Shown: positions 20,506 to 37,204, counted from the first letter of the stretch. The stretch is DNA of 64,000 nucleotides from Streptomyces sp. NBC_01288 (GCF_035982055.1 NZ_CP108427.1:10291001-10355000); one strand, 5' to 3'. Translations and numbers: made by a program. The notes: a model not told the origin generated them from the sequence alone.

Positions 20506-20536
20506 TTGACACCTTCCCGGGCCGACGACGTAAGTT
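20506..20536 (+). promoter_or_regulatory. predicted promoter of the leader peptide/monooxygenase operon
   Basis: A perfect -35 hexamer TTGACA (20506-20511) is followed after 19 bases by TAAGTT (20531-20536). The spacer is longer than ideal. It is placed correctly for a transcript covering the leader peptide and both flavin monooxygenases. Confidence 0.5.
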
Positions 20537-20569
20537 GAGGCGATCGGTCCCGGACGGATGGAGGCCCCG

Positions 20570-20686
20570 ATGCGCGTACCCGACGCCGCACCCCACGGTG
20601 CCGTCCCGGGCGCGTGGCTGATCATCCGGCGGCATGTCGACTACTGCCGTACCGCCTCCGCCGTCTGTCCTTCCGCACGCCCCTGA
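20570..20686 (+). CDS. cysteine-containing attenuation leader peptide
   Basis: A 38-codon frame with GGAGG just before ATG 20570 encodes a peptide whose core IIRRHVDYCRTASAVCPS matches the RRHVD-x-x-R-x-x-S-A-x-C pattern of actinobacterial putative leader peptides. These small frames lie upstream of sulfur-assimilation genes and are thought to sense cysteine through ribosome stalling at their Cys codons. Here Cys codons are 26 and 33. A strong hairpin begins five bases after the stop, followed by two flavin monooxygenase genes. The match and context together make a regulatory role likely. Confidence 0.75.
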   Translation: MRVPDAAPHGAVPGAWLIIRRHVDYCRTASAVCPSARP

Positions 20687-20691
20687 CCCAT

Positions 20692-20710
20692 GCCGGCCCC
20701 TCGGGCCGGC
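20692..20710 (+). promoter_or_regulatory. attenuator hairpin after the leader peptide
   Basis: GCCGGCCC and its exact complement GGGCCGGC flank a three-base CTC loop, giving a perfect 8-bp GC stem between the leader stop (20686) and the monooxygenase start (20740). No U-tract follows. It could terminate transcription or mask translation signals depending on where the leader ribosome stalls. Confidence 0.6.
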
Positions 20711-20739
20711 CGTCTCGACGTGTTCTCGGAAGGAACCCC

Positions 20740-21840
20740 ATGTCCGGCCCCGCCCTGCGGCTCGCCCTCGAAATCGACGGTGACGGCGCCCATCCCGCGG
20801 CCTGGCGCCGCGCCGCCCACTCGCCCGACCAGCTGCTGAGCCCACGCCGGTTGGCCCGCGTCGCCGCCGCGGCGGAGAACGCCGGGTTCACCCTGCTCAC
20901 CCTGGACGACGGCGCACTCCCGCCCGGCGCCGGGCCCGACGTGGTCGGCCGGATCGGCGCGGTGGAGCGGGCCGCGTTCATCGCCGCGTCGACGAGCGTC
21001 GTCGGCATCGCGCCGGTCGTGCCGCCCACCTACGCCGAACCCTTCCACGTATCAAGCCAGTTGGCGTCCCTGGACCACATCTCGGCCGGGCGCGCCGGGT
21101 GGGTGGTGAGCGAGGAGACGCGGCCCGAGGCGGCCTCCGTCTGGGGGCGCCCGCTCGTCGACGGGGACGCGGCCCGCGCCCGCGAGTCGCGTGACGGCGT
21201 CGAGGTCGTCCGCGATCTGTGGGACTCCTGGGAGGACGACGCGGTCATCCGCTCCGTCGCCACCAGCCGCTACCTCGACCGCGACCGGCTGCACTACGTC
21301 GACTTCACCGGCGACACCTACACGGTGAAGGGCCCGGCGATCGTGCCGCGTCCACCGCAGGGCCAACTCGTCGTATTCGGCAGCCCCGACCGCGTCCCCG
21401 GCGATCAACTCGACGTTGCCCTCGTCGAGGGCCGCGACCTCGCCGCCGTCACCGCGAGCGCGTCCGCCGCCGGAACGCCGCGCACCTTCGCCGAGGTCGA
21501 AATCGCCCTCGACACCGCGGACGCCACGGCCGAGGAACGCGTCGCCGACCTTGAGGAGCATGGGTCCTGGAGCGACCGGGGTCGGCTGCGCCACATCGGC
21601 TCGGCCGCCGGACTCGCCGCGCTGCTGGGGGAGTTGAGGGGCGTGGTGGACGGAGTGCGCCTGCATCCACTGGTGTTGGACGAGGACCTCCCCGAGCTGT
21701 CCCGGCTCGTCCTGCCCCATCTCTTCGAACGACGGCACGCCGTACGCCCGTTGCCCGGCGCGTCCCTGCGCACCCACCTGGGCCTCGACCGGCCCGCCAA
21801 CCGCTACGCCGCCGCGGCCGCCCAGGAGGACGCACGATGA
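20740..21840 (+). CDS. LLM-class flavin-dependent oxidoreductase
   Basis: The 366-residue protein has the bacterial luciferase-like TIM barrel, with conserved stretches ERAAFIAASTSVVGIAPVVP, SQLASLDHISAGRAGWVV and the helix VEVVRDLWDSWEDD. It resembles the DszA/NtaA/SnaA group but has a shortened middle region; the C-terminal half is less conserved, so it might be a partner subunit. GGAAGGAA precedes ATG 20740. The next gene overlaps by four bases (ATGA), so both are translated together. The leader peptide upstream suggests cysteine-responsive expression and use of an organosulfur substrate. Confidence 0.85.
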   Translation: MSGPALRLALEIDGDGAHPAAWRRAAHSPDQLLSPRRLARVAAAAENAGFTLLTLDDGALPPGAGPDVVGRIGAVERAAFIAASTSVVGIAPVVPPTYAEPFHVSSQLASLDHISAGRAGWVVSEETRPEAASVWGRPLVDGDAARARESRDGVEVVRDLWDSWEDDAVIRSVATSRYLDRDRLHYVDFTGDTYTVKGPAIVPRPPQGQLVVFGSPDRVPGDQLDVALVEGRDLAAVTASASAAGTPRTFAEVEIALDTADATAEERVADLEEHGSWSDRGRLRHIGSAAGLAALLGELRGVVDGVRLHPLVLDEDLPELSRLVLPHLFERRHAVRPLPGASLRTHLGLDRPANRYAAAAAQEDAR

Positions 21841-23237
21841 CCCGCACCGACCCCCTCGACGTCCCCCGCCCCGACGCCCGACTCCACTTCGGCGTCTTCT
21901 TCCAGGGCGTCAACCACTGGACCGTCTGGTCGGACCCCGCCAGCGGTTCCCAGATCGACCCCGCCAACTTCCGGCGCGTGGCGCAGACCGCCGAACGGGG
22001 CCTGTTCGACGCGTTCTTCCTGGGGGAGGGGCTGCGACTGCGCGAGGTCGACGGCCAGATCCACGATCTCGACGTCGCCGGACGGCCCGACGCCATCACC
22101 CAACTCGCCGCGCTGGCAGCCGTGACGGATCGGATCGGTCTGGTCAGCACGTCCAACACCACCTTCAACGAAGCCCCGGATCTCGCCCGCCGCCTGTCCG
22201 GCCTCGACCTGCTCTCGGAGGGCCGTGCCGGCTGGAACGTGGTGACCACCGACAACGCCTGGACCGGCGCCAACTTCCGCCGCGGCGGCTACCTCGACCA
22301 CGCCGACCGCTACCGGCGCGCCGAGGAGTTCCTCACCGTCGCCCGCGCGATCTGGGACAGCTGGGAGGACGCGGCCGTGTCCGACTCGGCGGATGCCCCG
22401 TCCTGGGCGGCACCCGGCGCCGTACGCCAAGTCCGCCACCAGGGACCGCAGTTCGACGTCGACCTCGCACCCACCCTGCCGCGCAGCGCCCAGGGACACC
22501 CGGTGATCTTCCAGGCCGGGGACTCCGGCGAGGGCCGGGACTTCGCGGCCCGCAACGCCGACGTCATCTTCTCCGCGCACGGCAACGACTTCGACGACGC
22601 CCTCGCCTTCGCCGACGATCTGCGGCGCCGGCTGCGGGCCGTCGGCCGCCCCGAGGACGACCTGCGCATCCTCCCCGGTACCGAGATCATCATCGGCGCC
22701 ACGGAGGAGGAGGCCCTGGAGAAGAAACGCTGGATCCGCCTCCAACAGGTCACTCCGGCAACCGCGTTGGGCATCGCCGGGCTGCTGTGGGGCATCGACC
22801 TCTCCGGACGGGACGCCGACGGGCCGTTGCCCAAGGAGGACCCGGTCGCCGCCGAGAACGACGGCTCCTTCGGCGCGCGGCGCATCGCCGACCCCCGTCA
22901 AGTCGTCGCCGAATGGCGGGAGAAGGCCGACGCGAACCGCTGGTCGCTGCGCGAGACCGTCATCGCGCTCGGCCCCCAGCGCGGCCACGTCGGCACCCCG
23001 GAGGGCCTGGCGGACAAGTTCGCCCATTTCGTCCGGCACGGCGCGGTCGACGGCTTCAACGTCACGCCGTACCTGATCCCCGACGGCCTCGACGACATCG
23101 TCGACCACCTCGTCCCCGCGCTCCAGGAACGCGGCGTCTACCGCACCGACTACACCGGTACGACCCTCCGCGAACACCTGGACCTGCGCGAACCCCTCAC
23201 CCACCGCACCACGACGGACCGCCGCCGGGCGGGCTGA
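21837..23237 (+). CDS. NtaA/DszA-family FMNH2-dependent monooxygenase
   Basis: At 466 residues this is a full-length member of the NtaA/SnaA/DszA/SoxA group. Family segments include HFGVFFQGVNHWTVW near the start, FFLGEGLRLRE, STSNTTFNEAPDLARR and SEGRAGWNVVTTDNAWTGAN. These enzymes oxidise sulfones, sulfonates, chelators or related compounds with FMNH2 from a separate reductase; no reductase gene is adjacent. It forms an operon with the preceding LLM gene (four-base overlap). The sulfur-type leader peptide supports sulfur scavenging rather than chelator use, but the substrate is unknown. Confidence 0.9.
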   Translation: MTRTDPLDVPRPDARLHFGVFFQGVNHWTVWSDPASGSQIDPANFRRVAQTAERGLFDAFFLGEGLRLREVDGQIHDLDVAGRPDAITQLAALAAVTDRIGLVSTSNTTFNEAPDLARRLSGLDLLSEGRAGWNVVTTDNAWTGANFRRGGYLDHADRYRRAEEFLTVARAIWDSWEDAAVSDSADAPSWAAPGAVRQVRHQGPQFDVDLAPTLPRSAQGHPVIFQAGDSGEGRDFAARNADVIFSAHGNDFDDALAFADDLRRRLRAVGRPEDDLRILPGTEIIIGATEEEALEKKRWIRLQQVTPATALGIAGLLWGIDLSGRDADGPLPKEDPVAAENDGSFGARRIADPRQVVAEWREKADANRWSLRETVIALGPQRGHVGTPEGLADKFAHFVRHGAVDGFNVTPYLIPDGLDDIVDHLVPALQERGVYRTDYTGTTLREHLDLREPLTHRTTTDRRRAG

Positions 23238-24610: not shown

Positions 24611-25438
24611 TCAGGCGACTCCTCCCCGCTCACGGGGTGTCTTCTGCCCGGCCTCGACGGACACCGGCAGCCGGTTCTCCGCCGGCGGCAGCGGGCAGGT
24701 GGCCAGGTCGGTGTAGGCGCACGGCAGGTTCGTCGCGCGGTTGAAGTCCAGGACGACCGTGCCGTCGGCGTCCGGCGGGGCGAGCGCGAGGGCCCGGTTC
24801 GCGGCGTACGTGGTCACCCCGGAGGTGGCGTCGGTGAAGAGCACGAGCAGTCCGCCCGGCCCCCGTCCGGGGAACGCGGTCAGGGCGAGCGACTGCCCGT
24901 CCAGCTCGAACTCGACCCGGCCCGGGGCGTCGTAGACATGCTCCAGCCCCTCGACCGCCGCGCCCACGGTCGTAGGACGCGGCGTCTCGAAGGCCGTATA
25001 GCGCCCCTGAACCACCCAGCGGGGATCCGGCGCGTAGGCGGGCGTACCGGCGAAGTCGGTGCGCAGCGGCGCGTCCGGGTGCCGGGGCCGCACGATGTCG
25101 TTCCCGCCGCGCTTCGCCACCTCGATCACCGCATCGCCCCAGACCGCGTCGACCCCGCCCCGCTCGGGCAGCACGCCGAAGCGGTGCTCGCCCCGCACCG
25201 GCGTTCCCTCCACGACGAGTTCCTCACCTTCGTCGAGGGCTACGGCGACCCCGTCGGCGTCGGTCCACCAGGCACCCGGCGCGTCCGGGAAGCGCTGCGG
25301 CCGGTCGTCGAGCCAGTGCAGCCCGGTGATCGCCAGGAACCCGTGCGGAGCGGTGAGGCGTTCCTCCTGCCCGCGATACCACTCCAGCCAGTCCTGAGTG
25401 AAGGCCTGGAGGTCGGTCGTGGTCAGGTCAACGGTCAT
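24611..25438 (-). CDS. DUF1684-family protein
   Basis: This 275-residue protein carries the signature of DUF1684: an N-terminal WLEWYRGQEERLTAPHGFLA followed by LTGLHWL-like sequence, and near the C-terminus the segment LDFNRATNLPCAY followed by ATCPLPPAENRLPV. The family has a beta-rich fold with conserved Asn, Arg and Cys in this last motif, but no established biochemical function. GAAGGAG precedes ATG 25438. It lies 208 bases upstream of the ArsR-like regulator on the same strand. Confidence 0.88.
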   Translation of the reverse strand: MTVDLTTTDLQAFTQDWLEWYRGQEERLTAPHGFLAITGLHWLDDRPQRFPDAPGAWWTDADGVAVALDEGEELVVEGTPVRGEHRFGVLPERGGVDAVWGDAVIEVAKRGGNDIVRPRHPDAPLRTDFAGTPAYAPDPRWVVQGRYTAFETPRPTTVGAAVEGLEHVYDAPGRVEFELDGQSLALTAFPGRGPGGLLVLFTDATSGVTTYAANRALALAPPDADGTVVLDFNRATNLPCAYTDLATCPLPPAENRLPVSVEAGQKTPRERGGVA

Positions 25439-33714: not shown

Positions 33715-33860
33715 CGCCCTGGAGAGACGCGCCGTACTCTCCCCCTGTAGTGATGGCATAAGGAAGCTGGTGGAATTCCAGCACGGTCGCGCCACTGTGA
33801 GCCCGCCGCCGGAAGGTGGAGGGCGAGTCAGACACTGAACCTTCACTCGCCCGTACACGC
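33715..33860 (+). promoter_or_regulatory. cobalamin riboswitch controlling cbtB-cbtA
   Basis: The core consensus is present: GGTGGAATTCCAGCACGGTC, then GCGCCACTGTGA (33769-33800), and the closing B12-box-like GAGTCAGACACTGAAC (33825-33840). Paired flanks bring the ends together. The element lies in the 255-base gap before cbtB, whose ribosome site GGAGGG lies just after it. In this class adenosylcobalamin binding lowers expression. Confidence 0.88.
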
Positions 33861-36813: not shown

Positions 36814-36989
36814 GGCCGTTGGACCTCCGTGCGAGCGGGTTGGGGCCTCCACGATCCGCCGTGCGGGGCGTGCCGCACAGGGGGCGGACGGAACCGGGCG
36901 AAAGTCCAGCGGTACCGGTGCAGAGCGGCAGTGGTTCAGGGGCACCTCCGCGCCGTACCCCGCAGCGGGAACCGACCGCCGATCTTGAT

Positions 36990-37204
36990 AGGTTGTGCGG
37001 GCCAGTCGTGCCACAACCGAGGCCAGGGAATCCGGTGGGAATCCGGAACTGACGCGCAGCGGTGAGGGGGACGGGCGGGGCAATCGACGCCACTGGGGCG
37101 ACGCGGACCGGCCGAAGGAGCCGGTGTGCGACGCGCCGGGAAGGCGCCCCGTCCGGACGAACCCGAGTCCGAAGACCTGCTGGCGCCTTCTCGCCCTCGG
37201 CGAG
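36990..37204 (+). promoter_or_regulatory. cobalamin riboswitch controlling the B12-uptake operon
   Basis: The consensus core is present: GGGAATCCGGTGGGAATCC, AACTGACGCGCAGCGGTGA (37018-37064), then GAGTCCGAAGACCTGC (37165-37180). A hairpin with stem CTCGCC and loop CTC (37190-37204) follows and may be the switching structure. The element lies before the binding-protein gene that starts at 37253. Confidence 0.9.

Follow-up and report, generated by a model that had tools for sequence, protein, structure and literature searches.

A leader peptide with a conserved UGU cysteine codon as a probable translational attenuator of a two-gene monooxygenase operon in Streptomyces

The short leader peptide gene upstream of two luciferase-like monooxygenase (LLM) genes, LLM1 and LLM2, in the window (the whole 64,000-nucleotide stretch of Streptomyces DNA that was analysed) is probably a cysteine-responsive translational attenuator of the LLM1-LLM2 operon. 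The original prediction had named a consensus -35 element, a 38-codon leader in which two codons are Cys, a perfect GC hairpin of 8 bp and two overlapping LLM genes, and all are present in the sequence (Table 1); the LLM genes overlap at ATGA. A further feature had been missed: an 8-nt stretch from the last base of the second Cys codon (the sensor codon) is the exact complement of the Shine-Dalgarno (SD) region of LLM1. At the sensor position we found a near-absolute synonymous-codon constraint (UGU versus UGC) throughout the genus. This constraint is new here, whereas the leader kind itself had already been annotated.

Table 1. Features of the LLM1-LLM2 operon and its leader region (positions counted from the first nucleotide of the window).
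Feature	Position	Strand	Evidence
Promoter, -35 TTGACA and -10 TAAGTT	20506-20511 and 20531-20536 (20506..20536)	+	Sequence; 19-bp spacer
Leader SD, GGAGG	20560..20564	+	Sequence; GGAGG then an in-frame ATG/GTG in nearly all orthologues
Leader peptide ORF, 38 codons, RRHVDYCRTASAVC core	20570..20686	+	29/30 orthologues; NF042934 24.4 bits
First Cys codon (codon 26), TGC	20645..20647	+	TGC in 29/29 orthologues
Sensor Cys codon (codon 33), TGT	20666..20668	+	TGT in 29/29 orthologues and in 15/15 own-genome leaders having that Cys
Anti-SD, TCCTTCCG	20668..20675	+	Expected to lie under a ribosome that stalls at the sensor
8-bp GC hairpin, GCCGGCCC-CTC-GGGCCGGC	20692..20710	+	Lies within the loop closed by the SD/anti-SD helix; not a terminator
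LLM1 SD region, CGGAAGGA	20727..20734	+	Predicted to be sequestered by 20668-20675
LLM1, 366-aa luciferase-like monooxygenase, probable partner subunit	20740..21840	+	PF00296 58.1 bits
LLM2, 466-aa NtaA/DmoA-family FMN-dependent monooxygenase	21837..23237	+	TIGR03860 387.2 bits, cut-off 279.7
DUF1684 gene, possible pathway gene	24611..25438	-	PF07920 160 bits

Leader region and a predicted helix over the LLM1 ribosome-binding site

The leader peptide starts with ATG at 20570, reads MRVPDAAPHGAVPGAWLIIRRHVDYCRTASAVCPSARP and ends at the stop codon 20684-20686. LLM1 was sought in 393 Streptomyces genomes, and the best 30 loci, the window's own included, were taken; the leader is present in 29 of them, with 53-226 nt between its stop codon and LLM1. 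In the remaining locus (L137), the operon keeps the SD GGAAGGA and has no recognisable leader, a natural loss. The peptide core, RRHVD[YFL]CRT[SAC]SA[VIA]C, is kept despite synonymous changes in its codons (for example, His is CAT in 15 and CAC in 14 of the 29 orthologues). Synonymous variation inside a near-invariant peptide core, together with conservation in 29/30 loci, indicates that the leader is more than a chance ORF. The promoter, whose -10 element is of the TANNNT type, was absent from the output of a sigma-70 scanner limited to spacers of 16-18 bp, versus 19 bp here. By a simple search, TTGACA with a TANGNTGA-type -10 was found in 21 of the 29 orthologues, and the two elements could be aligned in loci L042-L045.

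In the minimum free energy fold of 20655-20760, UCCUUCCG, which begins at the third base of the sensor codon, is paired with CGGAAGGA, and the GC hairpin lies inside this helix. The fold has a z-score of -3.1, and 1 of 200 shuffled sequences was as stable. All seven core pairs are found in 25 of the 29 orthologues; L130, L135, L138 and L141 each lack one, and in L141 UCCCU could pair instead with AGGGA across a bulge. Two subgroups of orthologues keep about 8 bp by different extensions, either a G after TTCC pairing with a C before GGAAGG, or GUCC/GGAC; in the latter subgroup the G after TTCC is often lost. The codon following the sensor, within the anti-SD, is the rare Pro codon CCT in 26 of the 29 orthologues, although CCT makes up 2.3% of the Pro codons in the genes of the window. 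The evidence for pairing in the LLM operon is mostly conservation, two-sided covariation being scarce.

Employing a partition-function model, we computed the accessibility of the LLM1 SD. The median was 0.002 without a ribosome. It rose to 0.34 when the modelled ribosome (a mask) held UGU in its A site; masking at the first Cys codon left accessibility at 0.002, and masking at the stop codon gave a median of 0.35. Because the mask at the stop codon freed the SD equally in the model, the switch would depend on dwell time and not on position alone. In silico, then, the SD is paired by default and freed by occupancy of the regulatory codon. Since the SD is closed and then opened by the UGU mask in the model, and since there is no terminator-like site, we read the arrangement as translational attenuation.

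We infer that the ribosome stalls at the sensor codon and that cysteine is the signal. With ample Cys-tRNA, the ribosome would complete the leader and depart, and UCCUUCCG would pair with CGGAAGGA, closing the ribosome-binding site of LLM1. With cysteine short, the ribosome would wait with UGU in the A site and cover UCCUUCCG (about 9 nt past the codon). The SD freed in this way would allow both monooxygenases to be made, LLM2 following LLM1 by translational coupling via the ATGA overlap, and the enzymes would release sulfur from an organosulfur compound. Stalling at the upstream UGC would leave the SD closed.

A similar arrangement is seen at one other operon of the same genome. The leader of ssuD, which encodes an SsuD-like monooxygenase, has its own 10-bp SD helix, CUCCUGUUGC/GCAACAGGAG, with a compensatory change of T-A to C-G (CCUGUUGC/GCAACAGG in L016 versus CCUGUCGC/GCGACAGG in L188 and L190). 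A direct SD helix was not seen in the other ssuD-type leaders (L182, L195 and L202). When all leaders of the own genome were modelled, a stall at UGU did not generally free the SD (p=0.33 versus a mask placed upstream by 7 codons), and when SDs were permuted among 23 leader types the pairing signal was weak (best p=0.005 of 11 offsets, uncorrected). SD sequestration as a rule for all leaders thus found weak or no support in these two sets, and other leaders may employ longer-range structures or another mechanism. Because the SD effect is not general in the own genome and the family-wide pairing signal is weak, we propose the mechanism for the LLM operon and ssuD and not for the whole leader family.

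Codon choice at the sensor position and competing mechanisms

In 84 non-redundant leaders, the motif-final Cys is TGT in 77 and TGC in 4, whereas the upstream Cys is TGC in 51 and TGT in 13 (Fisher p = 5e-22, a significance overstated by the relatedness of the sequences). With one leader per type, the sensor is TGT in 27 and TGC in 2. The uniform TGT of the own-genome leaders (Table 1) compares with a TGT usage of about 15% in the genes of the window. A DNA pattern of the motif ending in TGT matched in 295 of 296 Streptomyces genomes, at about 4-5 matches per genome by the listed counts, or more than 1,000, versus 10 matches in all 296 genomes for the same pattern ending in TGC, mostly of one leader type; a reversed-pattern control gave zero among the matches listed. 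The UGC exceptions (G039, G215, G290, G012, G071, G134 and others) mostly belong to a leader type with the core RRHVD[FL]RRVASA[VA]C. The motif with its UGU provides a DNA signature by which candidate members of the Streptomyces cysteine regulon can be listed.

An anticodon-loop pattern, which would miss a second gene with a different loop, detected one tRNA-Cys gene, with anticodon GCA. This anticodon recognises UGC through Watson-Crick pairing and UGU through a G-U wobble. In the simple reading, decoding of UGU would be slower and sensitive to starvation, and Cys would be encoded elsewhere in the leader by fast codons that let ribosomes reach the sensor. The favoured codon at the upstream Cys and the wobble-read UGU at the sensor would also fit the model above, because an upstream stall would not free the SD. 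We further propose, tentatively, that a single codon reads out the cysteine regulon of Streptomyces: a wobble-read UGU at a fixed site of the conserved leader peptide would have been selected as the starvation-sensitive sensor, with the faster UGC at the leader's other Cys codons. In at least a dozen unrelated operons, the stall site would then be determined by codon identity as well as by the amino acid. Such a clean separation of one synonymous codon as regulatory input is rare in nature, and these leaders could serve to test wobble decoding under amino-acid starvation. Codon choice as a tuning element of attenuation has reportedly been treated in theoretical work (PMC1183508); no report of the UGU constraint in these leaders was found in the part of the literature covered.

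UGU might instead be kept for base pairing with the SD region rather than for decoding. The third base of UGU is opposite an A in 28 of the 29 LLM-operon orthologues, and the UGU of ssuD is opposite ACA. However, leaders that lack such pairing have an invariant UGU as well, the permutation test across the family described above is weak, and in the 84-leader set the codons flanking the sensor are not fixed as the sensor codon is. As a complete explanation of UGU, pairing was unsupported beyond the LLM operon, ssuD and a weak case at cysO, and we regard it as somewhat unlikely.

Alternatively, the nascent peptide R-x-H-[VI]-D-L-x-R-x-x-S-A-x-C could arrest the ribosome while still in the exit tunnel, assisted by cysteine or a thiol as co-effector; starvation at the codon level would then be secondary. 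The amino-acid core is indeed conserved well beyond Cys across unrelated operons, with synonymous variation of CAC/CAT and GAC/GAT. Yet the sensor Cys is constrained at the codon level (UGU), which an arrest dependent only on the peptide would not need. We consider such arrest unlikely as the explanation; it could also operate jointly with translational attenuation.

According to the original prediction, the perfect GC hairpin would be part of an attenuator. In classical transcription attenuation, this hairpin or Rho would terminate the transcript except when a ribosome is held up at the Cys codons. A stable GC hairpin close behind the stop codon of the leader is compatible with this, and Rho-dependent attenuation has been proposed for mycobacterial cys leaders (PMC1262725). 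However, the hairpin is followed by no U-tract (no run of T in the DNA), and no intrinsic terminator-like site was found between the leader and LLM1. The hairpins of the orthologues differ in sequence and length (4-8 bp), and the spacer varies greatly while the SD/anti-SD pairing persists. The conserved structure is the predicted helix that sequesters the ribosome-binding site, and the role assigned to the hairpin is not supported; attenuation at the level of transcription appears unlikely.

Leader family, regulon and the monooxygenases

The window leader appears by sequence to belong to an already annotated kind, NF042934 (NCBIfam, cis_reg_atten, 'putative leader peptide'). It shares the 19-residue core of that family, matching profile positions 6-19, and is a short ORF with an R-x-H-V-D-L-x-R-x-x-S-A-x-C core before a sulfur-type operon. 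Its 24.4 bits fall short of the curated cut-off (27); of five orthologous leaders scored, three pass (29.0, 31.0 and 28.1) and two just miss (26.1 and 26.8). Membership of the window leader is therefore borderline by score and family-like by orthology. For this uncharacterised organosulfur operon, the annotation 'putative leader peptide' may now be turned into a concrete, testable switch. An Rfam search of the window gave no known RNA family at the leader locus; elsewhere in the window, cobalamin riboswitch matches were found at 36982-37198 (+; 74.8 bits, full length) and at 33762-33835 (+; 35.9 bits, partial, model positions 47-167).

Using profile and motif searches, we collected the leaders of this type in the own genome and assigned the names of downstream genes by reading their translations. 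The leaders precede cysO-cysM, sulfite/nitrite reductase, ssuD, an SsuC-like permease, flavin reductase, sulfurtransferase, an amino-acid permease, a GST-like protein, an LLM paralogue, and cysteine dioxygenase-like and sulfhydrylase-like genes. Family match, regulon context and conservation support the original proposal of a cysteine-type leader controlling a sulfur operon. That the short ORF is non-regulatory and its motif coincidental is extremely improbable: nothing beyond the shortness of the ORF speaks for it, against the 29/30 orthologues, about 16 copies in the genome, mostly preceding sulfur genes, and an existing curated family.

Several leaders deserve separate mention. Two of the own genome with a TGT sensor (L022 and L023, near 6834645 and 8430298 on C1, the single contig of this 10.56 Mb genome) precede a ROK-like regulator and a sugar-type ABC binding protein, which are not obviously linked to sulfur. 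At least four (L013, L018, L020 and L024) lie within about 15 kb at C1:1116965-1131625 of the own genome, with an LLM paralogue, a GST-like gene, an amino-acid permease and a binding protein, in what looks like a sulfur island. Leaders L018 and L203 end in SALN or SAMG without the terminal Cys; their Cys lies two residues after the conserved Arg (RVCSA) and is encoded by TGC in L018.

LLM2 passes the TIGR03860 model (NtaA/DmoA FMN-dependent monooxygenases), whereas LLM1 scores 153.5 bits, below the cut-off of 279.7. The closest solved relatives of LLM2 (PDB matches) are YtnJ/MoxC, NTA monooxygenase, DszA/BdsA and DmoA; the NtaA/DmoA family includes YtnJ/MoxC, DszA/BdsA and DmoA, the last two of which act on sulfur compounds. 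LLM1 matched 3SDO, YtnJ and 7E36 chain A. These sequence matches to solved relatives suffice to assign the family. An organosulfur (C-S cleaving) function of the LLM pair is likely. Genes that recur next to the pair in related loci encode an amino-acid-type ABC transporter (SBP_bac_3, BPD_transp_1), a GST-like protein and DUF1684. The DUF1684 gene adjoins the LLM1/LLM2 homologues in several Arthrobacter, Streptomyces and Rhodococcus loci; in the Arthrobacter loci it immediately precedes LLM1 and has the same orientation. Because of these neighbours, an imported S-substituted amino acid or similar thioether is favoured as the substrate at least as much as sulfonates or sulfones. The original prediction that the enzymes desulfurise an organic sulfur compound is plausible from the family and relatives of LLM2. 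By itself the leader does not disclose the substrate class, which it had been expected to make testable: leaders of this type are also found ahead of cysteine synthase, sulfite reductase, SsuD, permeases and others.

Comparison with known systems

The LLM pair resembles NtfO1-NtfO2 (PDB 7E36, PMC8027225), two LLM subunits that form a heterodimer, in which LLM1 matches chain A best and LLM2 chain B. Because of this precedent, and because homologues of LLM1 and LLM2 stand side by side in nearly all of 80 related loci, an LLM1-LLM2 heterodimer is likely by analogy. NtfO1-NtfO2 differ in that they hydroxylate a macrolactone intermediate and have no role in sulfur metabolism.

Leaders of the Ms5788A type have been proposed as cysteine attenuators in mycobacteria (Shell 2015, PMC4633059), and cysteine-responsive attenuation was reported experimentally in M. 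smegmatis, according to the papers that cite that work (Canestrari 2020, cited in PMC9031893 and PMC13236596). With the NF042934 profile, an Ms5788A-type leader from a distant relative scores 41.8 bits; this sequence passes the Ms5788A model as well, at 47.3 (cut-off 45). Like the Ms5788A/Ms4527A leaders, the window leader lies upstream of sulfur genes and has Cys codons near its stop, behind a conserved R-R-x-V-D-L-x-R core; for the downstream operon in mycobacteria, cysteine-dependent control has been reported (PMC4633059; Canestrari 2020, as cited). The mycobacterial leaders are described as leaderless with runs of Cys, whereas the window leader is SD-led, with GGAGG before ATG, a predicted -10 about 34 nt upstream of it, and two separate Cys codons, a single sensor UGU and an upstream UGC. 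Unlike in the mycobacterial leaders, the SD of the next gene would here be sequestered by bases that start inside the sensor codon itself.
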